Virus record (IMG/VR): IMGVR_UViG_3300025759_009321
Span: 1 to 21,154 of that record
Direction: 5' to 3' (one strand)
Length of the DNA stretch: 21,154 nucleotides
Source of the DNA: a virus
Shown here: in pieces, positions 3,469-20,127 of the stretch
Numbering within the stretch: the first letter of the stretch is position 1
Layout of the letters: each line of letters starts with the position of its first letter
Program-made: the position numbers and the translations under genes
The notes under the pieces: generated by a model
What the model was told of the DNA's origin: nothing
Seen by the model: the letters and a program-made list of their open reading frames with translations, nothing else
Database searches by the model: none

Positions 3469-3655
3469 CATTAGAAAGTATAAGGTTATTCCTAATGAAC
3501 GTGCAGAGGTAACTGAAGAAGATTGGGATGAAGATCTAATCGATCTATTCAATAACAAGCAGCAGAAAGCTGAAAAGATTATAAAGTCAGATAGAGCTAG
3601 AAACCGAAGGAAGGAAGCTCGATATGCCAAAGAAGATAGAATATACGGAAAGTAA
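3428..3655 (+). CDS. Small charged hypothetical protein, TTG start
   Basis: A 75-aa reading frame overlapping the end of the GIY-YIG gene by 41 bases and the start of the primase-helicase by 32 bases. No ATG or GTG lies in frame after the upstream stop at 3407; TTG 3428 has GGAG at 3417-3420, 7 bases upstream, so a TTG start is likely. The N-terminal half is mixed charge with an acidic stretch (EVTEEDWDEDLIDLF); the C-terminal half is strongly basic and helical (KAEKIIKSDRARNRRKEARY), which could bind nucleic acid. The frame fills a 155-base gap otherwise without a gene. The family is not recognised. Confidence 0.65.
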   Translation: MKSPKTIRNPYHNDIRKYKVIPNERAEVTEEDWDEDLIDLFNNKQQKAEKIIKSDRARNRRKEARYAKEDRIYGK

Positions 3656-5285
3656 AGAAATAGGTAAGACAGCTTGTCCCGCTTGTCCTTCAAGCGATGG
3701 CTTTGCTGTATACGATGATGGACACGGTTACTGCTATGTATGTAACCACTATGAAAAAGAAATCGGAAAGGAAGAGGAAATGCCTCTTGATACTAACACA
3801 CCTAGCCTTGAGCTATTTGAAGCAAACCTCGGCGATTGTCGTGGTGTACAAGACCGTAGAATAACTAAGACTATTGCAGAACACTACGGTGTTCGTGTTA
3901 ACTATGATAGTGACCGCAATATTATTGCTTATAACTATCCTTATTATGCGGATACACATCACCCCATTGCCTACAAAACAAGAACACTACCTAAACAATT
4001 CAAGACAGTAGGAGACTTTAAAGATGTTTGGCCTTTCGGCGTTCACGCTTTTCATGCGGGAGGAAAGAGACTTGTCATCACTGAAGGCGAGTTCGATGCG
4101 ATGGCGGTCGCGCAAGCTTCGTATGACCACTATAATAAAATCTATCCTGTCATCTCGGTAGCAAGTGCTTCTAACCTCAAGAGTCTTCTTCATGCTCGGA
4201 CATGGATTAGATCCTTTGAGGAAGTTGTTCTATTCTTTGACAATGATACTGCAGGACAAAAGGCTATTAAAGATGCCGCTAATATTATCGGTATCGATAA
4301 AGTAAAGATAGCTTCTTTAGGTACAGTAGCTAAAGATCCCTGTGAGTTGTACGTAGCTGCAGGTAAAGACGGTGTTATGCGTGCTGTATGGGATGCACAA
4401 CCCTATAGTCCAGCGGGTATTGTGGTAGGCCATGAACCTGTATGGGAACAATACCTATCTCGGCAAGCTACTGAGTCAGTGCCTTATCCGGATTGCTTAG
4501 ACGGTATCAATGAGAAGACTAAGGGTATGCGCTTCGGTGAGATAACCTTGTTTACTTCTGGTACTGGCAGCGGAAAAAGTACTGTCATTAAAGAAATTGT
4601 ACTTGACTTATTAGATAAAACTAGTTATAAGGTAGGTATGATCTCTCTTGAAGAGAGTATTGGCGATACCGCAGAAAAGTTTATTCAGATGAAACTTAAA
4701 CAAAACCTGCAAGAGTTCGATGTACCACTCGATATACAGGAAGCAGCATCAAAGGAGGTGTTTGGTAGTGAACGTCTTGTATTGCTTGATCACCAAGGTT
4801 CTGTTGGTGATGAGTCACTCATTGATAAGATTGAGTATATGGCTCTTATGGGTTGTAAGTATCTTATTCTCGATCACATTACGATTGCAGTATCAGAGGG
4901 CGCAGAAGGTTACTCTGGCAATGAGGCTATCGACAAGGTTATGTCAGACCTACTTAAGATTACTAAGAAGCATAACATCTGGCTTGGAGTTATATCTCAT
5001 CTACGGAAAGTACAGGGCGGCGGTACCACATTCGAGCAAGGTAAGTTACCTAGCATGGATGATATCAAAGGCTCTGGATCCATCAAGCAAATCTCTTTCG
5101 ATATTATCGGGTTCTCTAGAGATATGGCTAATGAAAATGAAGAAGTTAGAAATACTATTGAGTTCATCGTACTCAAGAGCCGCTTTTCTGGTAAGACAGG
5201 ACCAGCGGGTTCGGTTAAATACAACCATGAGACTACGCGGTTAGAATATAATAACAATAACATTGACTTTGAGGTGCTACCATGA
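3624..5285 (+). CDS. Primase-helicase (T7 gp4-type)
   Basis: Bifunctional replication protein, 553 aa, that primes lagging-strand synthesis and unwinds DNA as a hexameric ring. Domains in order: zinc-binding primer-recognition domain (C18/C21, C37/C40); TOPRIM primase fold with E154-G-E156 and D206-N-D208; RecA-like helicase with Walker A SGTGSGKST (312-320), catalytic glutamate in SLEES (343-344), Walker B LILDH (D417), sensor H459 in VISHLRK, and arginine finger R520 in KSRFSGKTG. Length and order match T7 gp4 (566 aa). A strong SD, AAGGAAGGAAG (3607-3617), precedes ATG 3624. A second SD and in-frame ATG (codon 53, 3780) lie just after the zinc domain, predicting a short helicase form like T7 gp4B. 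The stop overlaps the next gene in ATGA fashion. Confidence 0.96.
   Translation: MPKKIEYTESKEIGKTACPACPSSDGFAVYDDGHGYCYVCNHYEKEIGKEEEMPLDTNTPSLELFEANLGDCRGVQDRRITKTIAEHYGVRVNYDSDRNIIAYNYPYYADTHHPIAYKTRTLPKQFKTVGDFKDVWPFGVHAFHAGGKRLVITEGEFDAMAVAQASYDHYNKIYPVISVASASNLKSLLHARTWIRSFEEVVLFFDNDTAGQKAIKDAANIIGIDKVKIASLGTVAKDPCELYVAAGKDGVMRAVWDAQPYSPAGIVVGHEPVWEQYLSRQATESVPYPDCLDGINEKTKGMRFGEITLFTSGTGSGKSTVIKEIVLDLLDKTSYKVGMISLEESIGDTAEKFIQMKLKQNLQEFDVPLDIQEAASKEVFGSERLVLLDHQGSVGDESLIDKIEYMALMGCKYLILDHITIAVSEGAEGYSGNEAIDKVMSDLLKITKKHNIWLGVISHLRKVQGGGTTFEQGKLPSMDDIKGSGSIKQISFDIIGFSRDMANENEEVRNTIEFIVLKSRFSGKTGPAGSVKYNHETTRLEYNNNNIDFEVLP
3767..3782 (+). promoter_or_regulatory. Internal ribosome binding site and start for a short helicase form
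   Basis: AAAGGA at 3767-3772 followed 7 bases later by in-frame ATG 3780, codon 53 of the primase-helicase. Translation from here would give about 501 residues lacking all four zinc-ligand cysteines (18, 21, 37, 40) but keeping the TOPRIM and helicase domains. This parallels T7 gp4B, which starts at Met64 of gp4A. SD and spacing are directly visible; use of the site is inferred. Confidence 0.6.
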
Positions 5286-5473
5286 GCGAGACTGCTTTAT
5301 ATCATCAAATAGGTTTACTTCAACAAGAACTTGCTCATGCAAAAGAAATCATTGAAAGTCTTACTACGGAACGTAATAAGTTTCGTAGTCAGGCTATGAT
5401 GAGGGCAAATAAAATAGAGACATTATCAAATGAGATCAATAGTATTTATACGAAACAAGAGTATATCCCCTAG
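5282..5473 (+). CDS. Small coiled-coil hypothetical protein
   Basis: A 63-aa protein whose ATG overlaps the primase-helicase stop (ATGA), indicating translational coupling. Heptad-like spacing of hydrophobic residues runs through most of its length (YHQIGLLQQELAHAKEIIES, then KIETLSNEINSIY), so it should form a helical coiled coil and probably a dimer. There is no catalytic motif, signal peptide or membrane segment. The family is not recognised. Coupling to the helicase gene suggests, without proof, a replication-associated partner. Confidence 0.7.
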   Translation: MSETALYHQIGLLQQELAHAKEIIESLTTERNKFRSQAMMRANKIETLSNEINSIYTKQEYIP

Positions 5474-5600
5474 TCAAGACATTATTAAGCTATTAAATAG
5501 TCTTAGATCAAGGGGTACTGAGCCTATTGACTGGCACTATGATAACAACCATATAACATTCAGAGTAGAGGATGAAAATCATGGCGAAGAAAGCAGATAA
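5430..5600 (+). CDS. Candidate small ORF, 56 aa
   Basis: An in-frame ORF that bridges the space between the coiled-coil gene and the small basic gene, overlapping the first by 44 bases and the second by 20. Its second half (GTEPIDWHYDNNHITFRVED) has the mixed polar and aromatic composition of a real protein, and no other frame explains 5474-5580. The SD is weak (AGAG about 11 bases before the ATG), so expression may rely on coupling. The family is unknown. It may be real or an unused frame. Confidence 0.45.
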   Translation: MRSIVFIRNKSISPSQDIIKLLNSLRSRGTEPIDWHYDNNHITFRVEDENHGEESR

Positions 5601-5697
5601 TAGTAGGGATTACTTCCTTCTTAAACCACGCAAGCAGCGAACCTTCACAGGAAAGAAATATGCAGGACGTAAAAAGTATCGAGGACAAGGTCGATAA
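5581..5697 (+). CDS. Small basic hypothetical protein, 38 aa
   Basis: A very small, strongly basic protein (MAKKADNSRDYFLLKPRKQR, then GKKYAGRKKYRGQGR), about one third Lys plus Arg. An AGAGGA SD lies about 8 bases before ATG 5581; an alternative in-frame ATG at 5572 is too close to that SD. The composition suggests nucleic-acid binding, but there is no recognisable fold. It overlaps the proposed start of the deaminase by 38 bases, in keeping with the packed arrangement of this stretch. Confidence 0.5.
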   Translation: MAKKADNSRDYFLLKPRKQRTFTGKKYAGRKKYRGQGR

Positions 5698-6151
5698 CTA
5701 CAAAGGTTTTATTACCATGACAATAAAGGAAGAACGATATGATACACTCTATATGGACATCGCTAAGCGAGTTGCTCAAATGTCTTACGACAGCGACACG
5801 CAAGTTGGTGCAGTCATCGTTAAAGATGGAAACATTATTTCAATGGGCTGGAACGGCACTCCAAGCGGCTTTGACAATAACTGTAAACACCCTGAAACGG
5901 GTATCACTTTATCTACTGTTATTCATGCTGAAGCTAATGCAATCTGTAAGCTTGCTCGTACTAGCGGTGCTGGATTGGGTGCCACATTGTACACTACGCT
6001 CTCACCTTGTATCGAGTGCACTAAGCTTATCCTCCAATCTGGTATCAGCGAAGTTGTCGTTGATAAAGCGTATGAGAAAGATCTAGAAGGATTTAAAATT
6101 CTTAATGAGAAAGGTATGATAAGGGTATGCAAATCTATTACCAAAGAATAG
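5660..6151 (+). CDS. Deoxycytidylate (dCMP) deaminase
   Basis: Zinc-dependent deaminase converting dCMP to dUMP, feeding dTTP synthesis for phage DNA. The signatures are complete: H89-A-E91 (zinc ligand and proton-shuttling glutamate), P-C117-x2-C120 (zinc ligands), and the family-typical GWNGTPSGFDNNC (64-75 region) for substrate binding. Length (163 aa) fits bacterial and phage dCMP deaminases. ATG 5660 is preferred because AGGA lies 7 bases upstream; ATG 5717, with AAGG 10 bases upstream, would give a 144-aa protein that still holds the whole domain and would avoid overlap with the 38-aa ORF. No thymidylate synthase is seen in the window. Confidence 0.93.
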   Translation: MQDVKSIEDKVDNYKGFITMTIKEERYDTLYMDIAKRVAQMSYDSDTQVGAVIVKDGNIISMGWNGTPSGFDNNCKHPETGITLSTVIHAEANAICKLARTSGAGLGATLYTTLSPCIECTKLILQSGISEVVVDKAYEKDLEGFKILNEKGMIRVCKSITKE

Positions 6152-6396
6152 AGACTTTACCCGATTATGTTGCTTGGGTCCGATGTAATCCTGAAGATCG
6201 CAGTCAAGTAGAGGAAATGTTTCCTAAAGATAAATACGAACTACTGATTGCAGTACAACCTAACTATGACCCTATAACTTGTTCACAACAAGTACTTTAC
6301 AATCCACCCGCTCCAACTTGGGGCTTAGATGTATGGAAGAAAGAGGACGATGGAAGATATACGGAACTATCTACTAGAGAGAATCCGCAGCGATAA
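6127..6396 (+). CDS. Hypothetical protein, 89 aa
   Basis: An ORF starting 25 bases before the deaminase stop and ending inside the RNA polymerase N-terminal region. The sequence (ETLPDYVAWVRCNPEDRSQV, PKDKYELLIAVQPNYDPITC) looks like a folded cytosolic domain with alternating beta and helical segments. AAAGG lies 12 bases before the ATG, a rather long spacing, so coupling to the deaminase is possible. No family is recognised and no motif stands out. It covers 6152-6328, where no other frame codes. Confidence 0.6.
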   Translation: MQIYYQRIETLPDYVAWVRCNPEDRSQVEEMFPKDKYELLIAVQPNYDPITCSQQVLYNPPAPTWGLDVWKKEDDGRYTELSTRENPQR

Positions 6397-8467
6397 CATA
6401 GGTGTTAAGCCTAGACGCAGCCTACAACTTATGCGTATGATCGACACCGATGGTGTTGATATGCTCGACTTCCTAATCGAAGATATGATTATCTACGGAC
6501 GTAAGTTTATCCAGCGTTGTTTTAAACGTAGTAAAGTAGAAGGTGAAACCCCTATTACACAAGCTTCAATGGCTATCGGCAAGTATATTGTTGAAGGCTG
6601 GGACAGTAACAACGTTAACTTTAGAGACCATGTTCGTGTTGGTGATCTTATCATTGAAGGCTTTGTTATGTGTGGCTACCTGACTATATCAGTAGGACAC
6701 ATGAAGAGCCGTAAGCCAGTTACAATCCATGCCACCGATAAATGGGGTGAGATGGAAGTAGTAGCTGGCAAAACCACTTGTATGAGTGCAGATCCAATCC
6801 CACCTATCAGTAAACTATTTCAGGATAATGGTAGGGCTGTGATTAAAACTTGGGATAAGTCTAAAGAACACCTGTTTATGAAGTATATTAATGCACCTTT
6901 TGTAAAGGCAATTGATAGACTACAGTCTACACGGTATCGAGTTAACACTGAAGTTAACCAAGCCATTAAAGAAAATATGTTTATGTTTGTTAAGAACGAA
7001 ACATTTGATGGTGAAGACAAAGAAGAAAACACTAAGCTGTATCAGCGTCAGGCTTCTAAGAATCGCGAGATAAAAGAAGTAATGGCTATTGCAGACAAGT
7101 GGCTAGGTGAGTCATTTAGTTTCTACATTGATGCAGATTATCGTGGGCGGTTATACTATAGCGAACCCTTCTTTAACTTTCAAGGTGCTGACATTGCAAG
7201 AGGACAACTCTTGTTTGATGAAGGTAAACGCTTTGATGAGTCTGCTAGCTTCTGGTTAGCTGTTCATACTGCTTGTTGTTTTAATCAGTCATATAGTATT
7301 GATGAAATTCCTGAGTGGACTACAGGTGACTACCGTTCTGTACTCGAAGAAGAAAACTTAGATACTATTTCAGTAGACAAAATGACTCTAGAGGATCGCG
7401 CTCAGTGGACTCAAGAGAACGTTGAAGTCATTATTGAGATGGGTGAAATGCGAATGATCGCAGAAGAGGCCGAGAAAGCTATCTCTTTCTTAGCATGTTG
7501 CATCGAGTGGTACCGCTACAGTACTACGGATGGGGACTACTATACTCGACTTCCAATCCCCATAGACGGGGCTAATAACGGCTGGCAACACCTAGGCGCT
7601 ATGTCTAAAGATTCACTAACAGGTAAGCTAGTTGGACTTGTTCCTACTGAAATCCAGAACGACTTCTATGTACAAATAGCTAAACGGCTATGCGACAGGA
7701 TGCCCGAATGGTTTGAAGAAAGACAAATCCCAATGAAGCATATCCGTAAGGGCATTGCCAAACGTGCAGCCATGACTCGTGCTTATAGCTGTGGTCAAAA
7801 GAAAATGTCTGAGTCTATGTATAGTGATTGCTATCAATACGGCTTCACTAATGACTACAACATCTCTACTTGGGATTGTGATGAGTTAAGTAGCCAGGTT
7901 ATTAGGGCTATCCAGGAAGTTTGCCCCGGTCCTTTAGACACCATGAAGTATCTGCAACGGTTAGCCGATCAGGAGATCACTAACTGGTATAAGCAGTATG
8001 GTACTGATAGAGGTAAGGGTATCGAGTGGACTACCCCTTCAGGTTTTCCTGTAATATACGAATGTTATCGCACTAGACCTGTTAAGGTAGACTGCTATGG
8101 CTTCAATACGCCTGACGGAGAGATCCGCTTTAAGCACGTTATTAGAGAGCATACAGACATCCCTGATCGTAGAGGCTTTATGTGCGGCATTAGCCCTAAC
8201 TTTGTACACAGTATGGATGCTAGTCATATGGCTCTTGTTATAGCAGACTGGGAAGGCGACTTCGCTGCTGTGCATGATTCGTATAGCGCTCACGCTGGTA
8301 ACGTAGAAGATCTTATGGTCAAGACAAGACAAAAGTTTGTTAGTATCTACGACAAAGAAAACTTCTATGATACAATACCCTTTGGCAAGGGCTTTGAAGG
8401 AGTAGTACCTACTATCGGTAAGCTATCTATTAAAGATGTTGCTGATTCTACTTACTTCTTTTGTTAA
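6329..8467 (+). CDS. T7-like single-subunit DNA-directed RNA polymerase
   Basis: Phage RNA polymerase, 712 aa, expected to transcribe middle or late phage genes from its own promoters. Signatures: DYRGR (270-274); motif A D413-G-x3-G-W-Q-H; motif B K474-x3-K478-R-x2-M482-x3-Y486; NFVHS with H627, matching T7 H784; motif C H649-D650. The C terminus ends in aromatic TYFFC, comparable to the FAFA foot of T7. It is about 170 residues shorter than T7 RNAP, nearly all missing before DYRGR, so the N-terminal promoter-melting domain is reduced or divergent. The T7 R627 position is Lys, though an Arg precedes it. The start is uncertain: ATG 6329 or ATG 6350, with the latter's SD only 2 bases away. Unusually, the gene lies last in the replication block, next to the terminator. 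Confidence 0.95.
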   Translation: MYGRKRTMEDIRNYLLERIRSDNIGVKPRRSLQLMRMIDTDGVDMLDFLIEDMIIYGRKFIQRCFKRSKVEGETPITQASMAIGKYIVEGWDSNNVNFRDHVRVGDLIIEGFVMCGYLTISVGHMKSRKPVTIHATDKWGEMEVVAGKTTCMSADPIPPISKLFQDNGRAVIKTWDKSKEHLFMKYINAPFVKAIDRLQSTRYRVNTEVNQAIKENMFMFVKNETFDGEDKEENTKLYQRQASKNREIKEVMAIADKWLGESFSFYIDADYRGRLYYSEPFFNFQGADIARGQLLFDEGKRFDESASFWLAVHTACCFNQSYSIDEIPEWTTGDYRSVLEEENLDTISVDKMTLEDRAQWTQENVEVIIEMGEMRMIAEEAEKAISFLACCIEWYRYSTTDGDYYTRLPIPIDGANNGWQHLGAMSKDSLTGKLVGLVPTEIQNDFYVQIAKRLCDRMPEWFEERQIPMKHIRKGIAKRAAMTRAYSCGQKKMSESMYSDCYQYGFTNDYNISTWDCDELSSQVIRAIQEVCPGPLDTMKYLQRLADQEITNWYKQYGTDRGKGIEWTTPSGFPVIYECYRTRPVKVDCYGFNTPDGEIRFKHVIREHTDIPDRRGFMCGISPNFVHSMDASHMALVIADWEGDFAAVHDSYSAHAGNVEDLMVKTRQKFVSIYDKENFYDTIPFGKGFEGVVPTIGKLSIKDVADSTYFFC

Positions 8468-8470
8468 ATA

Positions 8471-8525
8471 AAAAAACCCCACAAGGTTTCCATTACGGAT
8501 TCCCTGTGGGGTATTTTTATTTTTA
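8471..8525. terminator. Bidirectional Rho-independent terminator
   Basis: ACCCCACA (8476-8483) pairs perfectly with TGTGGGGT (8505-8512), with further GG/CC pairing inside and a small inner TCC/GGA helix. An A-run (8471-8476) precedes it and T-runs (8513-8524) follow, so RNA from either strand ends the hairpin with a U-tract. It lies between the stops of the converging RNA polymerase gene and the 81-aa late gene, as expected for a shared terminator. Confidence 0.9.
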
Positions 8526-8771
8526 TTACATTAGTTCTTGAATATCTTTTTTAGCTTGCGCACGAAGACGCCCTGCCTTTGACTTAGCTTCAGCTATTGG
8601 CATACCTGTATTGATATACGAACGAATATTTTTATCATACATCGTATTTAAAAGTGCATCATTGATTTCTGGTGTATAAGCTAACTGTGGATTAAGGTTA
8701 AACTCCTTAATAAACTCCATGTCATCAATGTCTACGCCTTGCAATGCTAGTCTATTATAACTCTTTTTCAT
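8526..8771 (-). CDS. Hypothetical protein, 81 aa, last gene of the late block
   Basis: The final ORF before the terminator. TTAGGAGGACAAATTAT precedes the ATG, an excellent SD that overlaps the stop of the upstream RNA polymerase-like gene, so the two are coupled. The product is helical and charged (GVDIDDMEFIKEFNLNPQLA, and a basic C terminus AKSKAGRLRAQAKKDIQELM) with no membrane segment. The family is not recognised. Coupling suggests a role with the adjacent virion protein, such as packaging or folding it, but this is inference. Confidence 0.7.
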   Translation of the reverse strand: MKKSYNRLALQGVDIDDMEFIKEFNLNPQLAYTPEINDALLNTMYDKNIRSYINTGMPIAEAKSKAGRLRAQAKKDIQELM

Positions 8772-8784
8772 ATAATTTGTCCTC

Positions 8785-11700
8785 CTAATTATATTGGTAA
8801 ATGAGTTCTGCTAACTCTTTCAGTGCATTACGTTTACCGATTTCAGAATTATTTTTCCAAGTATTAAATCGTGTATTTATTTTTTCATAGTTCTCAATTA
8901 CTTTAAATACGGTTAATAATTGTTTACCACTTAAGTTTGCCCCTTCTTCTGCCCAACCTGCCGTTTTAACTGCATTAATAAGCTGTTCTAGCTTTCCTTT
9001 TGGTGGGCCTCTTCGACCTGTAATTGGCGCTACTATATTCCCTTTCTTCTTTTTTAGCTGATCTAATTTTTGTAAAAGATAGGTATGCATTGAGCGATAT
9101 GAACTTTCTCCTGATACTAAATACGTTCCATTTGGATTGATAGTATTTTGAAATACAGATTTAGCTTCATTATAGCCATTAAGAATATTGTTTGCTAAGT
9201 TATAACGTTTATTTACTTCAACAAAGTTTTTATTAATCCTAGCATGGTATTGGTCTACGCTAGATGCGTCAGTAATAATAGCATCATGAACTGGCAACAT
9301 AAATAACGGTTCTTTACGCCCATCATTGATATCATTAATTGTTTTAGCCATAATAGCTGCATCAATCTGTTGTATAGAAATAACAGGCAATTGATTAGCA
9401 ACTTCTTGACCGAACCTAGAAGGAGGTGCCTTTTGCCATTCACTTTCTTCTTTATCCCTGTTTAATATCTTTTTACTTTTAGATCTAGCACTACCTGTTG
9501 GCTGGCTTACTTGTACCTGTTTAAATACAGTCCCTTGCGGAGTTGGAATAGGTACTACCCGGCCAGTATCTGTCCATTCAGTAGAACCTAAGAAAATATT
9601 AGTACCCAATGGTCCTTTATAAGTAGGAACTTTGCCCATCATTGACCATAACATTCCCATATCTTGCAATGTTTTTTGATGCGTCATTGGAATTGAATCA
9701 ATTAATGTTGATTTAATTAGGCTATTAAAGTCTTCAACCATTTGATTAACATCAGAATAATCAATTACATCACTAAGATTTCTAGCAGTTTCTAGAATTG
9801 TTCCGTATTTACCATTTTTAAAATCAATAACTGTATCATGGTTGAAAGAAGGGTCTTTACCATAAGACACTTCCATTAGCGGAGTACGTGATATTAAACG
9901 AGTAATTGCTTTCCGGTCTTCATGCTGATTGATTTCATCTAATACCGTATTCCAAAAATCTACTTTTTCTGAACTGTTAGCAAATGTTTTCTTAATTGCC
10001 ATAGGCATCATATCCATATAGCGTTTACGAATATCTCCCTCTGGGATAACAGTGCCTTCTTCGGTATTATAAATTGCACCTATCGAGGCTAGCAAGTCGA
10101 TATCACCTAATTGCATTGCTTGAATAGCAATACCATTTTGTTTACCATCATGCTGGGTTTGTGCTTGTGGTTCAAATACAACGATGCCTCTTGGATCTGC
10201 CTTAGCTTTCTTTTTTGCATCTACATAATTTGCAAAGTCAATTAATGATTGTAGTTTATAACCCCATTCTGCAGGATCTTGGAAGTCCTCTAAGAAATCG
10301 GGGCCAACTAACTCGTTTAATGCTTCAGTATTTGTAAAGTCACTATCTTTAATAGTCCGAAGTCTTGCGCCTGTCTTGTACCATTTCTGGTAAATAGGGT
10401 TGTTAGGATCATTAATAACTCGCTCAGTAGCTCGTTGTACTGCATTCCAAGTCATGTCTTCGGTTTTTACTGCAGCACCTGTTCTATCTGTAAGCCCTGT
10501 TTCGCTTGGCTTGAGTAGGTTCTTTCCAATAATATATTTCCAATTAGATAAAACCTTTGAGCTTGTATCTGCAGTACTGTTAAGGTTTAATGGAAACCGT
10601 TTAGCACTACCTACAAAATTTCTTACTAGTTTACTATCTTGATAGTTAAGAATTGTGTTACGAACAAAATAACGACCTACAGACGAAGCATGAAACCATT
10701 TATTATAAAATACTTTACCATCTTTAGCATCACCGTCTAGCATTGTCTGGAAAATCTTTTTAGCTTCCCTACGAACTACTCTGTCTGCTTGTTCAGTTGC
10801 CATAGCAGTATCGCCATTGTGTGTTTTAAGCGCACGGCTATAAGCTTTAGCCCATTTCTTCTCATCAAGCCCAATCATTGCTGCCCAAGGTTCTGTAGAA
10901 AAGAACCCACGGTCTGATTGTCCAGCTAATCCAGTAATTGTTTTACCATCTTCTGCTACTTGAATTACAGAGGCAACCACCTGCATAGCAAAGTTATAAC
11001 GGTCTTCTACAATGCGTAGTGGCATACGCCCAAGGTTATTTTTAGTTTTGTTTTCAATAACAAGATTTTCATCTAGCTTAGATTTTTGAGATACGGGTCC
11101 TGCCTTACGCCCTTTAGTGCGTTCTAATCCTGGGACAGATTGTCCTTCAATAGTTGGTACTGAGGAAACATCAATACGATTTTCAGGTTGGATATCCGAA
11201 AGAAGCTCTTTGGCGTTATTGAAAAAGTTTTCTGCACCCTCTGACATACGGTAAAACTCACTTTCACCGTCAGTATGGTAATCAAGAAAACCAAGTTCTT
11301 TAACTGCATTCCACATAAGGGTGTCTAGATAACTAGCAGTTTCTGGATCTAAAGTAACACCAGCATCACCGTAGCCGGTAACAGTTTGTCCTTCTCTAGT
11401 AGGTGCCTGTAATAGTTTACCAATGACGCCTCTAGCTAGGCTACCTCTAGTGTAGTCTGTATTTAGTATTTCGCCTTGCACTTTATTTGTTTCATCTCTT
11501 TCAAATAAAGAAACATTATCTGATTGTGAAGCGTTGTAATTACCTGTAGCACGATCATCTCGTTTATTTATATGATCTTGAATATTTTCTAGTAACTGGA
11601 TTGTAAGCGCATTAGCAACTTTAGGTTGTAATTGATTAGTTGTAGAATCAAGTAAGTTATTCTTAATAAGAACATTTTTTACACTTTGCGCAGTATCAGA

Positions 11701-12267
11701 GAAATCATCTAGAGTAGGTCTGAAAGTTTCATCTAGCTTTTCTCTAAGCTCATACCCTGTATTAACAACGTTAGTTAAAGCATCGCGGCTTGATGTAGCA
11801 TTCTCAAACCTATTTTTAAGCTGATCAGGACTACGATAATCAAAGAATTCAGTATCCGATTCTTTAGCATAGATTGGTGCAGTCTCATACTGTGCTGCTT
11901 GTTCTGCTTCAACAGCACGTTGTGCTACTGCAGGATCAAACGTTGTTTGTCCTTCAATATCAGTAATACCTCGTTGAGCAACCTGACGGGCAACAGGGTC
12001 TATACCACCTGCTGTGCTTACCAACGATTCTGCTTGTTCCATTTGGCTAGGCATCGGAGTTGGTGTTGGAACAACGCCCTCTGTCTCCGGAGTTGGTGCA
12101 GGTGTTAACAACCCTAACTGCTCAGTAGCGGTAGGCGCAATTGTTGGTGTTGTTTCTGCTTCTTGTGTAATCTTACGCTTTTCTTGCTCCATTGCAATAG
12201 CTTGTGGCGATTGCGCTGGTGCTTTTACTCGTCTAGCGTTAGCTAGAGTATTACTAAACTTACCCAT
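8785..12267 (-). CDS. Putative virion-associated single-subunit RNA polymerase (N4 vRNAP-like)
   Basis: A 1160-aa protein encoded among ejection proteins. It carries the single-subunit RNA polymerase signatures in order: SSVGRYFV (R532), corresponding to the T/DxxGR motif; motif A D707-G-x3-G-I; motif B R790-x3-R794-x3-M798-x3-Y802-G; an LPVISIQQIDA segment where T7 has its NFVHSQD element; motif C VH994-D995. Spacings (GR to A 175, A to B 87, B to C 201 residues, then a 165-residue tail) lie near those of T7 and N4 enzymes as I recall them. Residues 40-75 are a Pro/Thr linker and the N-terminal 400 residues are unassigned. By analogy with N4 it would be packaged, injected and used for early transcription. 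Oddity: the motif B lysine is Arg (CGT, 9886-9888). ATG 12267 has GGAG 9 bases upstream; an earlier TTG at 12282 overlaps this SD. Confidence 0.75.
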   Translation of the reverse strand: MGKFSNTLANARRVKAPAQSPQAIAMEQEKRKITQEAETTPTIAPTATEQLGLLTPAPTPETEGVVPTPTPMPSQMEQAESLVSTAGGIDPVARQVAQRGITDIEGQTTFDPAVAQRAVEAEQAAQYETAPIYAKESDTEFFDYRSPDQLKNRFENATSSRDALTNVVNTGYELREKLDETFRPTLDDFSDTAQSVKNVLIKNNLLDSTTNQLQPKVANALTIQLLENIQDHINKRDDRATGNYNASQSDNVSLFERDETNKVQGEILNTDYTRGSLARGVIGKLLQAPTREGQTVTGYGDAGVTLDPETASYLDTLMWNAVKELGFLDYHTDGESEFYRMSEGAENFFNNAKELLSDIQPENRIDVSSVPTIEGQSVPGLERTKGRKAGPVSQKSKLDENLVIENKTKNNLGRMPLRIVEDRYNFAMQVVASVIQVAEDGKTITGLAGQSDRGFFSTEPWAAMIGLDEKKWAKAYSRALKTHNGDTAMATEQADRVVRREAKKIFQTMLDGDAKDGKVFYNKWFHASSVGRYFVRNTILNYQDSKLVRNFVGSAKRFPLNLNSTADTSSKVLSNWKYIIGKNLLKPSETGLTDRTGAAVKTEDMTWNAVQRATERVINDPNNPIYQKWYKTGARLRTIKDSDFTNTEALNELVGPDFLEDFQDPAEWGYKLQSLIDFANYVDAKKKAKADPRGIVVFEPQAQTQHDGKQNGIAIQAMQLGDIDLLASIGAIYNTEEGTVIPEGDIRKRYMDMMPMAIKKTFANSSEKVDFWNTVLDEINQHEDRKAITRLISRTPLMEVSYGKDPSFNHDTVIDFKNGKYGTILETARNLSDVIDYSDVNQMVEDFNSLIKSTLIDSIPMTHQKTLQDMGMLWSMMGKVPTYKGPLGTNIFLGSTEWTDTGRVVPIPTPQGTVFKQVQVSQPTGSARSKSKKILNRDKEESEWQKAPPSRFGQEVANQLPVISIQQIDAAIMAKTINDINDGRKEPLFMLPVHDAIITDASSVDQYHARINKNFVEVNKRYNLANNILNGYNEAKSVFQNTINPNGTYLVSGESSYRSMHTYLLQKLDQLKKKKGNIVAPITGRRGPPKGKLEQLINAVKTAGWAEEGANLSGKQLLTVFKVIENYEKINTRFNTWKNNSEIGKRNALKELAELIYQYN

Positions 12268-12317: not shown

Positions 12318-15300
12318 TTATCTTAACAATGCTCTGATTATATCATCGGAATCAGGCAACTCTACCCCTTTAAGGGGGTTTTCTAAGTGTGCTACATCAG
12401 ACAAAGAACGTCTTAATGAAGTTACCGGGCCAATTCCAGGTAGTATCTTACCAAAGTTTGATACTGCTCTTTCTGTTTCTCCTGATAACGCTTGTCCTGT
12501 TGCGGTTAATACTGTTTCAATATTTCTAGCTGAAGGTCCAGCCTCACCAAGAATAGTATTAAACATCCATTCAAGACCGTTACCTCGTTGTGGATAAAGT
12601 GGGTGTACCATATCTACAACTCGTTCATACTGACCAATAACACCAGAAGAATATAATGCTCTTTGTACATAACCTACTTCATCAAGATAAGGGCTTGACT
12701 GTCCAAACTTAATTAAGTCTTTAATGTACTGAGAAGCTCCTCCTAGTGCCATCATCATTATTACTAACGCAAACATATCATACTTTACTTTAGGATTACC
12801 TTTTGCCAGTTGATCACGCCAAAGCTTAGGAATAACATTAGCAGTAAATGTACTAATGAAACCGTTAAACTGAGTGAATAACTGATAATGTGGATCCTGG
12901 AAAAACAAAGGACGATTAGCAGCTTGAGGGTTTTGAATACGCTCATTTACAAAACGGTAAATAGCAGTTTGTATTTGCTCATTTACTTCTTCTTGTATTT
13001 TTTGCGCTCGCTGTAGTAACTCTTCACCCTTTAGCTTTTCACGACGTGCTAGCTTTCTTGTAGCTGTTTCTCTTTGAGTAGGACTACGAATAAAGGCATC
13101 GGTATCCCCTTCTACTGAGCGATTGTCAGTAATATCAAATAGTGTATCTCTGTAGATCTCATCGGTTTCACTAAAGTAATCATATAGCTTTTGTACATCA
13201 ATACCAAGGTCAGATAAGTCTAAGAAAGTTCTCATTTCAACTTCATTAAACCTATCAAGGTTAAAGGTACCATCGCTATTCTTAGGTGCAAACTCTAATC
13301 GATTAAAGCCAGATTTAACTGTGTCTACTGCAAATGCAGCATTCATTCTACGCTGGAATTGAGTAAACTGCTTAATCCCTACTGCTCTAAAGAAAGCTTC
13401 ATGTGCTTTAATAAACGAAACATCACGCTCACCTGTAGCAAGCCTATCAACGACAGTGTTTTGGTCTTCAGATAGTCCTGATTGCTCCAACTGCTTCTTA
13501 GTTATCTCAACTTCTGCTTTGAGAGCGTTATCCCAGGCACCTGCAACTTGTTGAATGAATCGGGTATTCGCTTGTTTAAACTCATCGCTATCTTTTACTT
13601 TAAAGTAAACCATAGCTGTTTCAGGTATAGAAGAAATAGTAGAAAGAGGTAGCCCTGCAAAGATAGACCACGATGTTAAGTAGTTATTTACTGCTGCCCA
13701 TCGAGGGTCTTGGATACGCCTAAAGTTACCATGTGAACTATCAATAATTGCTTTAGTATACCATGCAAACTTTTGAATTTCTTCTTTGTTAAGTACACCC
13801 TCTGTTTCTAATTGTTTAAATAAGCGAGATAACTTTGAACCACCTTCACCGAAGTATTTAGTTGTTGAATTATATTTTGCAACTTCATTTTGTGTTTTGT
13901 TTAATGATTCAAATAGATTATCATTAGACCAATTATTAAATCCTTTAGCATCTGTAATATTTGTTGATGCAGGATTAAAGGACCAAGGTCTCCACTTAAC
14001 GCCACCTACTAAGGAAAAGTCTCCTTGTGCGCCATGTGCTCCCCTATTAGCGATGTTTTGATAGATAGATTCTACATCAAGCGAAGGGTCTACACTCTTT
14101 AACCACTTTTTAAATCCGGCAGGATTCTTTCTAACCTTAGTATGATCAAAGCCTTGATGTCTCCACCAATAATCAGAACGATAAGGTATTGTTTTTCCTT
14201 TATTTGATTTAGAATACTCTTCATTAAAGGCTGAATGAGAAGCATCATAAGAGCTTTTAATTTGTTTAGCTGCAGCATATAGTTTACTAGCTTCGGTAAA
14301 GCTATCTACTTTTAATGCTTCGAATGGTACAACACCATTAGGGAATTTTTTAGCCTTAGCATAGTAAGCACGAATATCTGCATCAGTGCTTAAGCCTAAT
14401 GCATTTAGTTCGTCTACAATTATTTGATCACGATTACCTTTAATATAAGCATCTGCTAAATCAAAAGCGCCTTGTTGTTGTAAGACCATCAACTCGTAGT
14501 TTTCAAATCCACCTGATCTTCCAAACTCTCTAAGTTTTTTAGAAATATCAATTGCATTTTTTGAATCAATATTTTTATAACCAAAAGATTTAGCAATTTC
14601 TTTTTCATCTACAAAGGTTTTTAAGTCAGAGATTAGCTGATCACTATACTGTTTAAAGTTTTGACCAGCATGATACACACCCGTAGTCATTTGACCAATG
14701 CGAGAAAAAATATCTAAACCTATTTTACTTTGTACAAGCTTATTAAAGTCTACAGCGGAAGACTCTGCTGCTTTAAATAGCTTTCCAAATCCACTAGTTA
14801 TATTTTCAATATAATCATATAACTCATCATTATTTCTAAAGAAGTTTTTAATACCACGTTTTTCATTTTCATGGACTTGAGCTTCGTTACTAAAATAATT
14901 TATATCTGAATCATAATCATAGTTATCTCTTTCAGCGTCTCTGTCGTCAGCATCAATATTAGCAGTAACCGTAGACGGCTTAGGTCGATTAAGATTAGTG
15001 TCACCTGATTGTGCATCTCTAATTCTAGCTTGCTCTATAATACGATAACGATCTGTACTTGCTTTAGCTAGATCTGAACGTGTAAGTTGATTTTGTCCTT
15101 GAGAATAAATATTTCCAGCAGCCGAAAAGCCTGAACCAAGTACACCACCTGCTAAACCAGCATTAATAAAGCGATTAACTAGCTCATCTTGAGTGTACTC
15201 TTTCTCTGACATTATGCCAGCAGTAGCTACTTGAATGCCATCTTGAATTATCTCAGTACCGCCTTCCTTTAATGAGCCTAATGCTCCAGCCTTAAGAACT

Positions 15301-16538
15301 CCAGCTCCAGTAAACTTAGCAATGTCAGATGGTCTCATCCGCAGTAAGCTGCGTGCCATTGATGCCTGTTCTTCTTTAGCAGTCTTAAGAACAACGCTCT
15401 TAGCAACTTCTCTACTAACATTATTTTTCTTAGCATATGAACTGACTAATCGATTAATTCCTTTTTGAGAAAGAACATCAGCAGGACTAATTAAAGCTTT
15501 CATACCAAGCCGTTCAACCATAGCGGCTGCGACACCTGCAGCAGTAGCTGCTAAAAACTGTGGAATTCCTTTTTCGCCTTCCATCTCATTCCAAGTATGA
15601 CCTGCATAAATGGTAGCAATAGGAGCAAGCGCAGTTGCACCGCCAACAGCTGGCCCTGCTATTAAAGTGGTAGGTACAGCCGCAGCTGCAGCACCGAAGG
15701 TTGCTACAAGATAAGGTGCCGCCATAACAGCGTTATTCATTGCCCAAGAAAAACCATCCCATACGTTATCAACATCTTGATAGTCTAAGATAATTTCAGG
15801 TGCATCTGCCATACGGAGTCTAGCATTACGAACACCAGCTTCACCAAGATTTTGAATCATGTCAATATCGGTAACTTGACCAATACCTTCTAGGTATCCC
15901 CATAGTCCTTCCTTAACGCCATCCCAACCTTGATCCCAAGCAGTTTCTACATTTCCTGTAAAGCCAATTGCTTTGTTATCGAGTGTGCGTTCGACATCTC
16001 TGTATCGAACACCCGAATGTATTTCAGGATCATAATATTTTTCATTAATAGCCTTGTCTTTAAATACAATACCTGATTGGGCAATCTGATTTCTTATATC
16101 ATCGCCTAGATCGTTTAACGGATCTTCTTCCTTGCCAAAAGCTGCTTCATAAAGCTCTCGCTCGCGTTTAGCAACAATTGCTTCTTCAGAAGTATATGGT
16201 GTAACTTCAGTTATTCCAGATGAAATAAGTTTACTTTCTAAGCTTTCACCCTTATCATTACGAAGATTAATAATCTGCCTATCGTAATCATCGTATTCAC
16301 CAGTATATTCAATATCATTAAAGCCACCATCGCGAATAACTTTAGCTATAGCTTTAGCTTGAGCTTCTCCACCAATTTGACCCTGTTTAAATTCAATACC
16401 ACCTTCTGTCTCAATTATTTTGTCTACTTCTCTAGCATTAACATTGCCAATACGAAGCTTATTGCCATTAGTATCAGCAGCTGTATCGCCATCTAATAAC
16501 AAAAAAGAGTTATTCTTTTTGTCACGAAAAGTTTCCAT
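12318..16538 (-). CDS. Large ejection (internal virion) protein with N-terminal staphylococcal-nuclease-like domain
   Basis: A 1406-aa virion protein, probably ejected into the host envelope with the genome. Residues 11-120 match the SNase (thermonuclease) pattern: LDGDT (D16, D18), LRIGNVNAREV (R29, E37), GGEAQAKAIAKVI, then DDYDRQI with R87, ending in SKLISSGI. Relative to staphylococcal nuclease the D21, R35, E43 and R87 equivalents are present, but the D40 equivalent is Asn (N34). Then come Gly/Ala-rich hydrophobic segments near 267-312, 326-345 and 407-475, including EGGTEIIQDGIQVAT, suited to membrane insertion, a long helical middle, and another hydrophobic stretch near the C terminus (MFALVIMMMALGG). 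AAGGAG lies 7 bases before the ATG. Neighbours and size fit a T7 gp15/gp16-type channel protein. The family is otherwise unrecognised. Confidence 0.85.
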   Translation of the reverse strand: METFRDKKNNSFLLLDGDTAADTNGNKLRIGNVNAREVDKIIETEGGIEFKQGQIGGEAQAKAIAKVIRDGGFNDIEYTGEYDDYDRQIINLRNDKGESLESKLISSGITEVTPYTSEEAIVAKRERELYEAAFGKEEDPLNDLGDDIRNQIAQSGIVFKDKAINEKYYDPEIHSGVRYRDVERTLDNKAIGFTGNVETAWDQGWDGVKEGLWGYLEGIGQVTDIDMIQNLGEAGVRNARLRMADAPEIILDYQDVDNVWDGFSWAMNNAVMAAPYLVATFGAAAAAVPTTLIAGPAVGGATALAPIATIYAGHTWNEMEGEKGIPQFLAATAAGVAAAMVERLGMKALISPADVLSQKGINRLVSSYAKKNNVSREVAKSVVLKTAKEEQASMARSLLRMRPSDIAKFTGAGVLKAGALGSLKEGGTEIIQDGIQVATAGIMSEKEYTQDELVNRFINAGLAGGVLGSGFSAAGNIYSQGQNQLTRSDLAKASTDRYRIIEQARIRDAQSGDTNLNRPKPSTVTANIDADDRDAERDNYDYDSDINYFSNEAQVHENEKRGIKNFFRNNDELYDYIENITSGFGKLFKAAESSAVDFNKLVQSKIGLDIFSRIGQMTTGVYHAGQNFKQYSDQLISDLKTFVDEKEIAKSFGYKNIDSKNAIDISKKLREFGRSGGFENYELMVLQQQGAFDLADAYIKGNRDQIIVDELNALGLSTDADIRAYYAKAKKFPNGVVPFEALKVDSFTEASKLYAAAKQIKSSYDASHSAFNEEYSKSNKGKTIPYRSDYWWRHQGFDHTKVRKNPAGFKKWLKSVDPSLDVESIYQNIANRGAHGAQGDFSLVGGVKWRPWSFNPASTNITDAKGFNNWSNDNLFESLNKTQNEVAKYNSTTKYFGEGGSKLSRLFKQLETEGVLNKEEIQKFAWYTKAIIDSSHGNFRRIQDPRWAAVNNYLTSWSIFAGLPLSTISSIPETAMVYFKVKDSDEFKQANTRFIQQVAGAWDNALKAEVEITKKQLEQSGLSEDQNTVVDRLATGERDVSFIKAHEAFFRAVGIKQFTQFQRRMNAAFAVDTVKSGFNRLEFAPKNSDGTFNLDRFNEVEMRTFLDLSDLGIDVQKLYDYFSETDEIYRDTLFDITDNRSVEGDTDAFIRSPTQRETATRKLARREKLKGEELLQRAQKIQEEVNEQIQTAIYRFVNERIQNPQAANRPLFFQDPHYQLFTQFNGFISTFTANVIPKLWRDQLAKGNPKVKYDMFALVIMMMALGGASQYIKDLIKFGQSSPYLDEVGYVQRALYSSGVIGQYERVVDMVHPLYPQRGNGLEWMFNTILGEAGPSARNIETVLTATGQALSGETERAVSNFGKILPGIGPVTSLRRSLSDVAHLENPLKGVELPDSDDIIRALLR

Positions 16539-16589: not shown

Positions 16590-19394
16590 TTATTTAAAGG
16601 CTTCTGTTATCATCCATTGAATTATTGGATCATAGCCATCTGCTTTAAATGCGTCTTTATTTTTAACTTCTTTCCAGTCAGCTTTAGCATCAGTCCAAAG
16701 TTGACGGTATACTTTAACATAAGTTTCACGATCAAGATTACCATCAGAATTAATAGCTGCATTAGCTGCTGCATTAGAAAGTGTCTTTTCAAGAATATCT
16801 AAATTTTCAGGATTGGTATTTTTAACATCGTTATAACTAAAGACACCACCTGTTTTAAGCTTAATTATACGCTTGTTATAATAACCTTCAATACTTGTTG
16901 GCTTATCAAATTCGCTAGGATTTTGCATATGCTTTTTATAGTCTTGCAGAAAATCTTTTTGTGCTAAAGTTATCTCATCCGATAATTTTACAGCCTTTTT
17001 ATTGTTCATTCTGAAAAGATCTCTATTTGAAACATATAAAGCACGTGCTTCATTTGCTAATGTTTCAGTAGAAAAGTCTAATTTAGGACTATCTTTATCT
17101 ATTGCTTTATTTAACTCATCAACTTGATTACCTAATCTTTTTTGAAATTCATCTCTGATTTCATTAAGATCATGCAGTTTAGGATTAACTACTTCGAATC
17201 GAGAAGAAGTCGCATCTACAAAGCCATCACCAGATTTTACAACTAGCCTTGCATCTTTACCAGATCCCATTTTATAAACAGGTACTTCTGTTCCAGTAAA
17301 TCGATCAAAAGTAGTTCCTGATTGTCCTGTAATATTCATTGCAGAACTGCTAGTTGGCTTTTCAATAAGATCATTACGATCCCCTGTTTTAAGATAATTA
17401 TCAAGTGATTCTTTAGTGTATGCTTCCATGAAGTCTTTATCACGAACATCTTTTTGGCGCTGAGTATACTCTGCATCAATACGTTTAACATATTGTTTAG
17501 CAGAATAACCAAGAGAAGCTGAATGATCATAACCCAATGCTCTAGAACCAGCATACATAACTGCCATACGTGCAAGCTCTTTAGGATCAAACAACTCTCC
17601 AAACATATCTTTAAATCCTTGCATAATAGACTCAGCAAATGTAGGATCTGATTTTAAAGTTTTATTGCCTTGATCAGTGATTTCATCTTCATCTTCTTTA
17701 ACTTGGTCAGCTGCTTCTGCATTTTGTTTGGCAGCAGCTTGAACTTTAGCTAACGCTGCTGATGCACGATCAGATGTTTTAGTAGCATCTTCCGGCTTTG
17801 GTGGTGCATCATCAGTTGCTGGAACAGTTGAGACCTCAAAGTCTAATATTTCATCTGCTTCTTTTTGACGATCCGAAATAACTTTTGCTTCTGCTGAATC
17901 AAGTTTAGCAATATCTTTTTCAACTCCAGCTTTAGTTGCTTTAGCATCCTCTAAATCTTTTTTGGCCTTTTTACCTTTTTCAACTGTTTGCGGAGTTACA
18001 CCACCTGAAGACGATATTTCAATTTCAAGTTGTGCTTGAGCAGCCGCTAATTCAGCCTCAGCTTTAGCAATTTCTTCTTCTGCTGCAGTAACTTTGTTTC
18101 GAAGTCCTTGCTTACCAAGGCTTTCTGATTTAGGCAGCTTTGATGTTGGAACCCCATATCGATCTGTAGTTTGTGGACTTATATTTGACATTCGACTAGG
18201 TGGTATCGAATAAAGTTCATTATAGGCTTCATCTCCAATATCGCCACCGGCTTCATTTAAAGAAGGAACTTCCATAGTCTTTAAAATAGCTTCATCCCGA
18301 ATACGCTGGTCTTCACTACCTGCAATTTGAGTAGGTACACGAGGTCCAGTTACTGGATCTGAGTACTGACTAAAATCAATTGCTGTAGGAGGAGGTACAG
18401 GTGCATCTGGCTCTGGTACTGGCACTTCTGCTGGTGCCAACGGAGTCATTGCGTTTAATTGATTATCATCAAGATAAACTTCACCTTCTGGTGTCATAAC
18501 AAATTCACCCATGTCATCTGAGTAAACCTTTTGATCTCCAATAGTCCCTATTACTGTTCCTGGTACTGTACTAACCTGTCTACGAGTAACACCAAACTTA
18601 TCTGGATCAGACATATTATCCATTATTTTACCAGCATAGGCTTGTCCACGTGGTCCAAGCGCTTCTGTTCCAGCTTTAGCTTTACGGACATTACTTGCAC
18701 CCGAATGGTAAGCAGTAAGTACTTCTTCAGGAGTAAAGTCAGGATTAGCGCTAGCAATACCTGTTAAATAATTCCTAGCAAATTCTCTAGACTTAACAGG
18801 ATCACGAATATCTTCTATTGCAAGAGGAGGAACATTCATCCCAGGCTGTTGCGCTGTTGCTGGCATAATCTGATAAAGACCTTGTGCTCCCACTTCAGAG
18901 GTAGCCATAGGATCACCTGAAGATTCGACCATTTTAAGGCTGTCAAGTACTTCATCGGTTAACCAAGAAGGAACTTTACTACCTACAGCAGAATACATAG
19001 GACCACCGTCTCTATCACCAAGCCGTTGACCAAGACTATTTAGCATCCCATCATAACGAGGTACTTCCATTCCACCAGCAGCATAAGTAGGAATAGGTCC
19101 ACCTTGTGCCTGTTGAACTGCACGACCTTGTTCATTCATTTCATCAATCTTTTCTTGATTACCAGGAAGACGAGATGCTTCAGCATTAACAACGTTCTCT
19201 CCAGGGGTTAACCATGCGGGGACTGTATCAGTACCTTTAGGTTCTCCAGGGTGATTACTAGTGTCTGCACCATTATAACCATCAGCCATGTCAGGGATCA
19301 TCATCATCATCGGGATAGAAGCATCGGGTTCAAAGAATTCAAAAGAAAACATATTGCCATAACGGTCTTTCTGACTAAGGCTTTTTAGTTTCAT
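16590..19394 (-). CDS. Ejection protein with soluble lytic transglycosylase (SLT) domain
   Basis: A 934-aa virion protein that would cut peptidoglycan during genome entry, like T7 gp16. The SLT domain spans about residues 143-260: catalytic E157 in MVESSGDP, GAQGLYQIMPAT (169-180), and TAYHSGASNV (227-236). Before it, GTDTVPAWLTPGENVV (54-69) is a motif known from phage tape-measure and internal proteins. After it come a Pro-rich linker (APAEVPVPEPDAPVPPP), a long Ala/Glu/Lys coiled-coil region (about 430-640), and a helical C-terminal third. AAAGGAG ends 5 bases before the ATG, with a one-base gap to the upstream gene. The SLT call is secure; the remainder is unassigned. Confidence 0.9.
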   Translation of the reverse strand: MKLKSLSQKDRYGNMFSFEFFEPDASIPMMMMIPDMADGYNGADTSNHPGEPKGTDTVPAWLTPGENVVNAEASRLPGNQEKIDEMNEQGRAVQQAQGGPIPTYAAGGMEVPRYDGMLNSLGQRLGDRDGGPMYSAVGSKVPSWLTDEVLDSLKMVESSGDPMATSEVGAQGLYQIMPATAQQPGMNVPPLAIEDIRDPVKSREFARNYLTGIASANPDFTPEEVLTAYHSGASNVRKAKAGTEALGPRGQAYAGKIMDNMSDPDKFGVTRRQVSTVPGTVIGTIGDQKVYSDDMGEFVMTPEGEVYLDDNQLNAMTPLAPAEVPVPEPDAPVPPPTAIDFSQYSDPVTGPRVPTQIAGSEDQRIRDEAILKTMEVPSLNEAGGDIGDEAYNELYSIPPSRMSNISPQTTDRYGVPTSKLPKSESLGKQGLRNKVTAAEEEIAKAEAELAAAQAQLEIEISSSGGVTPQTVEKGKKAKKDLEDAKATKAGVEKDIAKLDSAEAKVISDRQKEADEILDFEVSTVPATDDAPPKPEDATKTSDRASAALAKVQAAAKQNAEAADQVKEDEDEITDQGNKTLKSDPTFAESIMQGFKDMFGELFDPKELARMAVMYAGSRALGYDHSASLGYSAKQYVKRIDAEYTQRQKDVRDKDFMEAYTKESLDNYLKTGDRNDLIEKPTSSSAMNITGQSGTTFDRFTGTEVPVYKMGSGKDARLVVKSGDGFVDATSSRFEVVNPKLHDLNEIRDEFQKRLGNQVDELNKAIDKDSPKLDFSTETLANEARALYVSNRDLFRMNNKKAVKLSDEITLAQKDFLQDYKKHMQNPSEFDKPTSIEGYYNKRIIKLKTGGVFSYNDVKNTNPENLDILEKTLSNAAANAAINSDGNLDRETYVKVYRQLWTDAKADWKEVKNKDAFKADGYDPIIQWMITEAFK

Positions 19395-19395
19395 G

Positions 19396-20127
19396 TTATA
19401 CTCCTTTGCTTATCGGTCCACCGTAAGACAATTTGTAGGTCTCTCCACCTTTTGATTTATATTCTACTTTAGCTAATGGTCCAGCCATACCGCCTTTGTT
19501 AAGCATTGAAGCTAACCCCATAGGGATCCCTTCTTCTTTTGCTTTATCCATAAGCATAGGCATTAGCCCACCCATGCTAGCGTGTAATGGCCCAACATAA
19601 CCCCCCTTATTAAACAAACCAAAGGCTTTACCAGCAAGCATTGCAGCACCAATGTAAGGTACTGCTGTACCTAGCGCACCCATAGCAGCACCCATGCCAC
19701 CCGTAGTTGCACCAGAAGCTAACGCATTAGTTGTTGCTTGTTTTGCTAGCTCCGCACCACCCATTTTTGCTAATTCAGCGCCAGCCATTCCAGAAGCCTC
19801 CGCAACTAACGGAGCCGCACTAGAACCAGATCCCATAATAGCTTGAGCTTGGCCTGGAGATACTCCTTGCCCTGCAAGATTAATTATTTCTTTCATTTGG
19901 GTACCCGAAGGTGCAGCTACTGAAGGCGCTAACATAGAAGAAACACCTTCTGTTAGTTTTTCTTCCCCATAATCAAGACCTTTTGTCATAGCTCTATTAG
20001 CTGCCATATCAGTCATTTGTTGTGCAGCTGATTTTTCTTGAGGTGCTATTGGTTGAGGAGTTGGTCTATAGAGTGGTCCTTGTCTAGGGTCTTCTTCTCT
20101 TTGTAGCTTAGCTAATTGAACAGCCAT
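19396..20127 (-). CDS. Gly/Ala-rich internal virion protein (gp14-like by position)
   Basis: A 243-aa protein, with a polar Pro/Gln N terminus (LYRPTPQPIAPQE), a long Ala/Gly/Met-rich middle that could insert in membranes (TTGGMGAAMGALGTAVPYIG), and a C terminus with two copies of NKGGxxGPL (NKGGYVGPL, NKGGMAGPL). Its size and its place just upstream of the SLT ejection protein resemble T7 gp14, the smallest ejection protein that forms an outer-membrane pore; no sequence homology is claimed. GGAGGTGG precedes the ATG, which overlaps the upstream stop by one base, showing coupling. Confidence 0.75.
   Translation of the reverse strand: MAVQLAKLQREEDPRQGPLYRPTPQPIAPQEKSAAQQMTDMAANRAMTKGLDYGEEKLTEGVSSMLAPSVAAPSGTQMKEIINLAGQGVSPGQAQAIMGSGSSAAPLVAEASGMAGAELAKMGGAELAKQATTNALASGATTGGMGAAMGALGTAVPYIGAAMLAGKAFGLFNKGGYVGPLHASMGGLMPMLMDKAKEEGIPMGLASMLNKGGMAGPLAKVEYKSKGGETYKLSYGGPISKGV

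Follow-up and report, generated by a model that had tools for sequence, protein, structure and literature searches.

A compact, N4-type virion RNA polymerase predicted beside a T7-like RNA polymerase in a lineage of uncultured phages

The DNA analysed here, called the window throughout, is a virus record of 21,154 bases (IMGVR_UViG_3300025759_009321). Its plus strand carries replication genes for a DNA polymerase A, a 5′–3′ exonuclease, a GIY-YIG nuclease, a primase-helicase, a dCMP deaminase and a T7-like RNA polymerase (RNAP), and these are convergent with late genes on the minus strand, arranged leftward in the order 19396-20127, 16590-19394, 12318-16538 and 8785-12267. The last of them, an ORF that the first-pass annotation of this DNA had listed without a strand, runs on the minus strand from an ATG at 12267 to a stop at 8785 and encodes the 1160-aa protein P0001; an alternative TTG start would add 5 aa. 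The late operon ends with this gene, which adjoins the genes of two ejection-type proteins, so that the virion-module location proposed for it is borne out. The capsid genes and the early region of the phage lie outside the contig. The features of this part of the window are as follows.

6329..8467, plus strand: second RNA polymerase, a T7-like single-subunit RNAP of 712 aa with 16 Cys, convergent with the P0001 gene (Pfam and PHROG)
8476..8512, no strand: bidirectional terminator-like hairpin ACCCCACA...TGTGGGGT at the convergent junction, with an A-tract before and a T-tract after it
8526..8771, minus strand: ORF of 81 aa without Cys, 3′ of the P0001 gene at the end of the late operon
8785..12267, minus strand: P0001, putative compact vRNAP-like single-subunit RNA polymerase, 1160 aa, 0 Cys (motifs, Pfam, PHROG, family alignment, AF2 fold)
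12318..16538, minus strand: putative ejection protein, 1406 aa, 0 Cys (weak match to PHROG 6958, virion structural protein)
16590..19394, minus strand: putative ejection protein with an SLT transglycosylase domain, 934 aa, 0 Cys (Pfam and PHROG)
19396..20127, minus strand: late gene

A PHROG search with the 81-aa ORF gave no match. The GIY-YIG nuclease (2833-3468), which is SegE-like, lies between the exonuclease and primase-helicase genes; as ORFs of similar size occupy its place in two other loci (L001 and L003), it may be a resident gene and not a homing invader.

Comparison with another locus, L018, showed 97% DNA identity over positions 2434-8553, that is, through the T7-like RNAP gene and past the terminator, after which the match stops. 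Positions 8476-8553 thus hold a sharp recombination boundary where, immediately past the terminator, the replication/RNAP module gives way to the virion module. Since the identity ends at 8553 and the compact polymerases of the two loci are only ~29-38% identical, the P0001 gene moves with the virion module.

Taken alone, P0001 gives weak similarity scores. Its match to Pfam RNA_pol (E=0.0013) is below the curated cutoff, and the PHROG search returned PHROG 414, RNA polymerase, with E=9e-6. No match was obtained by phmmer against the PDB, profiles of 3-5 close sequences recovered no RNAP from the PDB by sequence, and BLAST of P0001 against gp33 of Roseobacter phage CRP-7 alone found nothing. 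For this reason relatives were gathered from IMG/VR, with P0001, CRP-7 gp33, the neighbouring T7-like RNAP and a divergent subgroup as queries. Some of these relatives match PHROG 2206, 'virion RNA polymerase', with E values down to 3.9e-11, and a 64-sequence profile reached mitochondrial RNAPs in the PDB, at an E of only 0.009.

Profile-profile alignment (hhalign) of the family gave a probability of 98.4% (E 7.6e-15, residues 397-1039) against nine schitovirus virion RNAPs (vRNAPs) and of 96.4% (E 1.1e-9) against T7-like RNAPs. Control families (DNA polymerase A, helicase, ejection proteins) stayed at or below 0.8%, and reversed or column-shuffled family alignments at or below 0.4% against N4. 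The profile comparison with T7 and N4 recommended in the first-pass annotation therefore matched both, with nothing scored by the controls, and the N4 vRNAP-like character it had proposed agrees with the better E value. In bits, the family scores 141.4 against the N4 vRNAPs, as compared with 72.7 for N4 vRNAPs against T7-like RNAPs. P0001 with only two close relatives reaches just 45% against N4, so the case for homology rests on the family.

The motifs were not supplied to the profile alignment, yet it placed S528, R532, K546, R549, D707, R790, R794, Y802 and D995 of P0001 on T420, R424, K437, R440, D559, R666, K670, Y678 and D951 of N4. The catalytic residues thus fall one-to-one on those of N4 and T7, position 794 being an Arg where both have the catalytic Lys. 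The elements lie at the following positions.

10672..10686, minus strand: T/DxxGR motif, here S528-S-V-G-R532, mapping to N4 T420-R424 and T7 D421-R425 (R532 in 57/57 members)
10621..10632, minus strand: K546...R549, equivalent of N4 K437/R440 (alignment; K546 in 57/57)
10132..10149, minus strand: motif A, D707-G-x3-G712, with the predicted catalytic Asp (N4 D559, T7 D537; alignment and conservation)
9859..9900, minus strand: motif B on the O helix, R790-x3-R794-x7-Y802-G803 (N4 R666/K670/Y678; alignment, conservation, AF2)
9283..9291, minus strand: motif C, V993-H994-D995, with the predicted catalytic Asp (N4 D951, T7 D812; alignment and conservation)

The four motifs on which the earlier proposal of a polymerase was based (SSVGR, DG-x3-G, R-x3-R-x3-M-x3-YG and VHD) are present with exact numbering at residues 528-532, 707-712, 790-803 and 993-995, M798 being the Met of motif B. 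Conservation was examined in 57 distinct members, 1156-1385 aa long, that have fewer than 50% of 5-mers in common. R532, K546, R549, D707 and D995 are invariant (57/57), and position 790 is Lys or Arg throughout. Tyr occupies position 802 in 55 members and Phe in the other two. The median spacings are likewise kept (R to D 180, D to Y 94, Y to D 204 residues). Other positions are looser: residue 528, a Ser in P0001, varies across the family, and Q705 stands for N4 E557, which stabilises the +1 NTP phosphate in N4 and has a Glu counterpart in only 16/57 members.

Where the T7-like RNAPs have DxxGR, with Asp in 35/35, P0001 reads SSVGR. The position of N4 K437 is Lys in 9/9 N4-type vRNAPs and in 57/57 compact members vs. 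Asp in 35/35 T7-like RNAPs. The Lys at this position, together with the loss of the Asp of DxxGR, puts the family on the N4 side. A quick tree nests the N4 enzymes within the compact family, with an SH-aLRT of only 86, a value that does not separate a position inside the family from one beside it. In the T7-like RNAPs of the same phages motif B ends in Y-S rather than Y-G (residues 486-487 of the window's 6329-8467 product; Ser in 34/35).

These data bear on whether P0001 might be a structural ejection protein derived from a polymerase, its catalysis lost, that forms part of a DNA channel. The Arg at the position of the motif B catalytic Lys, found in P0001 and nine of the 56 other members, is compatible with such a protein, as is the replacement of the Gly of the GR motif in 24/57. 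Against it, position 794 is Lys in 47/57 and position 802 Tyr or Phe in all, and the invariant active-site residues are kept by members as low as 14-16% identical; with catalytic residues retained family-wide, a dead enzyme is not expected. R794 was rejected as its sign because most relatives have Lys there, and we regard the loss of catalysis as very unlikely.

Structure prediction by AF2 for residues 100-1160 with 64 homologues gave a confident model (pLDDT 88.2, pTM 0.89); a run with 10 close sequences (pLDDT 38) was not used. Compared with the PDB, the best 50 of 73 matches (E<=0.001) were all single-subunit RNAPs, namely yeast and human mitochondrial, T7 and N4 vRNAP, with E from 2.5e-16 to 6e-11 and probability 1.00. 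In BFVD the named best matches were nearly all phage RNA polymerases, N4-type vRNAPs included. TM-scores of ~0.4-0.5 indicate a distant member of the single-subunit RNAP superfamily. In the model a strand carries R532, D707 closes a strand that leads into a helix, a long helix bears motif B, and the turn of a beta-hairpin holds D995, a predicted placement that fits the palm and fingers of single-subunit RNAPs. The structure prediction that had been put forward as a check hence returned the fold anticipated, with the motifs on the expected strand, O helix and beta-hairpin, and the assignment to single-subunit RNAPs is upheld by the motifs, the 57-member conservation and the fold together.

Two further readings can be judged at this point. 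Motifs A and C and the right-hand fold also occur in family A DNA polymerases, and P0001 could on that account be a DNA polymerase or primase-like enzyme. Yet the family profile of the phage's own DNA polymerase A scores 0.8%, the best fold matches are all RNAPs, and motif B carries the Tyr-Gly, and the protein the K437/R440 equivalents, of N4 vRNAP; this reading is highly improbable. The sub-cutoff Pfam match would also suit an unrelated internal virion protein with motifs arisen by chance, a case of next to no weight given the shuffled and reversed controls and ruled out by the fold and family conservation.

The size of P0001 is that of a known catalytic module. The N4 mini-vRNAP of 1106 aa retains initiation, elongation and termination, and in N4 K437 and R440 bind the initiating nucleotide (PMC4496689). 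Motif C is followed by 165 residues in P0001 vs. 155 in the mini-vRNAP and R532 corresponds to N4 R424, so P0001 equals a mini-vRNAP with ~108 additional N-terminal residues. Residues ~109 to 1160 alone make up the mini-vRNAP size; the long accessory N terminus ascribed to the protein by the first-pass annotation is thus not there, only a short N-terminal extra. Its remark that P0001 is much smaller than the ~3500-aa N4 protein is accurate, as the entire protein is 1160 aa and has no room for the giant three-domain architecture of N4 vRNAP. The 998-aa N terminus and 1400-aa C terminus of the latter serve injection and encapsidation (PMC5512222, PMC12633501). Judged from its sequence, P0001 has neither region. 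The phage seems to dispense with both, and separate neighbouring proteins may supply these functions. On the same architectural grounds we rejected the identification of P0001 as an N4 gp50 orthologue in a schitovirus.

Ejection of P0001 is indicated by three features: its position, its composition and its inheritance with the virion module. As to position, N4 has replication genes followed by convergent gp50 (vRNAP), gp51 and gp52 (ejection), capsid, portal and terminase, and CRP-7 has replication genes with RNAP gp30, then convergent gp33, gp34, gp35 and, further on, capsid gp55, portal gp59 and terminase gp62. The layout of the window matches this order as far as the window extends. The earlier description of a non-N4 gene context accordingly fails for the gene order, which is that of N4, and holds for the adjoining T7-like RNAP, which is no N4 feature. 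When the T7-like RNAP was used as an anchor and loci with at least 1.5 kb of DNA downstream of it were counted, a convergent member of the family was found in 129/130 (81/82 distinct RNAP sequences). The phage does encode a second polymerase, as had been claimed.

With regard to composition, P0001 and its two neighbours P0002 and P0003 (3500 aa together) contain no Cys, and the same is true of N4 gp50-52 and CRP-7 gp33-35. Fifty-one of the 57 compact members are devoid of Cys and six have one, vs. 13.6 on average in the T7-like RNAPs that these phages encode. If P0001 had the composition of the window's replication proteins, zero Cys in 1160 residues would have a probability of 3e-10. Some other structural proteins are likewise Cys-free, which makes the absence of Cys a strong hint of ejection, short of proof.

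Conservation of the active site says nothing on packaging and would equally suit a late-expressed, active second RNAP that remains in the cell unpackaged, for example to transcribe a subset of late genes or to prime replication. This we consider unlikely, because P0001, unlike the T7-like RNAP, is Cys-free, as are the ejection proteins beside it and N4 gp50-52, and because in 81/82 distinct relatives the gene closes the late module and is convergent with that of the T7-like RNAP.

We conclude, with a probability of roughly 0.8, that P0001 is an N4-type, DNA-dependent single-subunit RNA polymerase reduced to its catalytic module, which is made late, packaged and ejected, and transcribes the first genes before the T7-like RNAP takes over. 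To judge by its sequence, it would be an N4-type virion RNA polymerase in a new and compact form, in essence a "mini-vRNAP" occurring in nature. There are strong indications of packaging, ejection and early transcription; catalytic activity, early promoters and a division of labour between the two RNAPs are inferred. In the proposed course of infection the compact polymerase would be a late product that enters the capsid together with its two Cys-free neighbours and later passes through the short tail into the host, either before the DNA or along with it. Once inside, by analogy with N4, it would transcribe the first phage genes, that of the T7-like RNAP among them, which would make early expression independent of the host RNA polymerase. 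Middle and late genes would then be transcribed by the T7-like RNAP that these early genes yield. Points that count against this explanation are the apparent absence of the N4 injection (N-terminal) and encapsidation (C-terminal) domains, R794 for the catalytic Lys, Q705 for N4 E557, and the hairpin promoter not found in CRP-7 or its relatives. By analogy, the reading that P0001 works like N4 vRNAP stands.

Comparison with known systems sets the limits of the likeness. N4 gp50 (Schitoviridae) resembles P0001 in its RNAP module of ~1100 aa (mini-vRNAP residues 998-2103), T/S-xxGR in place of DxxGR, the K437/R440 equivalents, the lack of Cys, and its place as last gene of the late operon adjoining two Cys-free ejection proteins. 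It differs in being ~3500 aa long, with the two terminal domains, in an identity to P0001 of ~15% in aligned columns, in its hairpin promoters, for which the search of CRP-7 and its relatives gave no counterpart, and in that the second RNAP of N4 is RNAPII (gp15+gp16) and not a one-chain T7-like enzyme. CRP-7 gp33 (MK613349; 1235 aa) belongs to the same family, with the same position, motifs and Cys-free composition, and is convergent with the T7-like RNAP gp30; yet it is 18-21% identical to P0001, its GR motif is LR, and the CRP-7 host is an RCA roseobacter. The shortest vRNAP encountered in the literature, that of Alteromonas phage R22Y (2083 aa; PMC11705849), is also a shortened vRNAP of a marine podophage with a second RNAP, but it is a schitovirus enzyme nearly twice as long as P0001. 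T7 RNAP and the phage's own T7-like RNAP share the superfamily and motifs A, B and C, but have DxxGR and Asp at the K437 position and are not ejection proteins; the phage's own enzyme is in addition Cys-rich and lies in the replication module. Polyvalent proteins contain vRNAP modules embedded in large multidomain proteins (PMC5512222), and such N4-like RNAP domains are delivered with phage DNA, whereas P0001 is a stand-alone protein with its own conserved gene neighbourhood.

P0001 comes from a marine phage and would ordinarily be listed as a "hypothetical internal virion protein". The compact vRNAP family is previously unrecognised and is carried by a whole lineage of uncultured phages beside a T7-like polymerase. 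Among 50,697 deposited phage genomes, queried from five subgroups, CRP-7 gp33 was the only full homologue found; it is annotated as hypothetical, and in the available portion of the CRP-7 paper ORF30 alone is reported as an RNA polymerase (PMC6918029). No description of the family was found in the literature searched, in which subscription papers were mostly outside the scope. An earlier vRNAP survey used a length filter over 2500 aa (PMC10654107), which would have removed any compact member detected. Bacterial genomes scanned with the profile of the T7-like RNAPs yielded no host or prophage clue.

A virion-carried single-subunit RNAP is regarded as a hallmark of N4-like phages. With the present family this trait would reach a widespread group, for the most part uncultured, with a polymerase of one third the size that has no packaging or injection domains, and one can therefore ask which parts of N4 vRNAP packaging and delivery need. 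A compact Cys-free RNAP that has to withstand transit through a phage tail would be of practical use as an enzyme as well. It is possible, though doubtful, that a large marine podovirus lineage has a self-sufficient natural mini-vRNAP and that such a compact ejected polymerase was the ancestor of the giant N4 vRNAP, which would have gained its N- and C-terminal domains later.

A repeated hairpin promoter was sought in the non-coding DNA of CRP-7 and relatives and none was found, only isolated hairpins in about the number expected from a rough estimate made without a shuffled control. A different sequence, TATAGTCCNNTATTAAAAGG, occurs in five copies, four in CRP-7 (L005; 2025, 7146, 14763 and 38264) and one in L006 (7214). 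All lie in intergenic DNA ahead of genes and share their orientation, and one immediately precedes the T7-like RNAP gene. The sequence is probably a phage promoter. It does not form a conserved hairpin, and it may belong to the T7-like RNAP.

In two members of the compact family (L080:12431-16531 and L081:3770-7927, both on the minus strand) a NADAR-like domain is inserted between motifs B and C. The insert matches Pfam below cutoff (E 0.0013 and 1e-4, respectively) and resembles a DUF1768 protein of a crAss-like phage, which would place an ADP-ribose-related domain within a putatively ejected polymerase.
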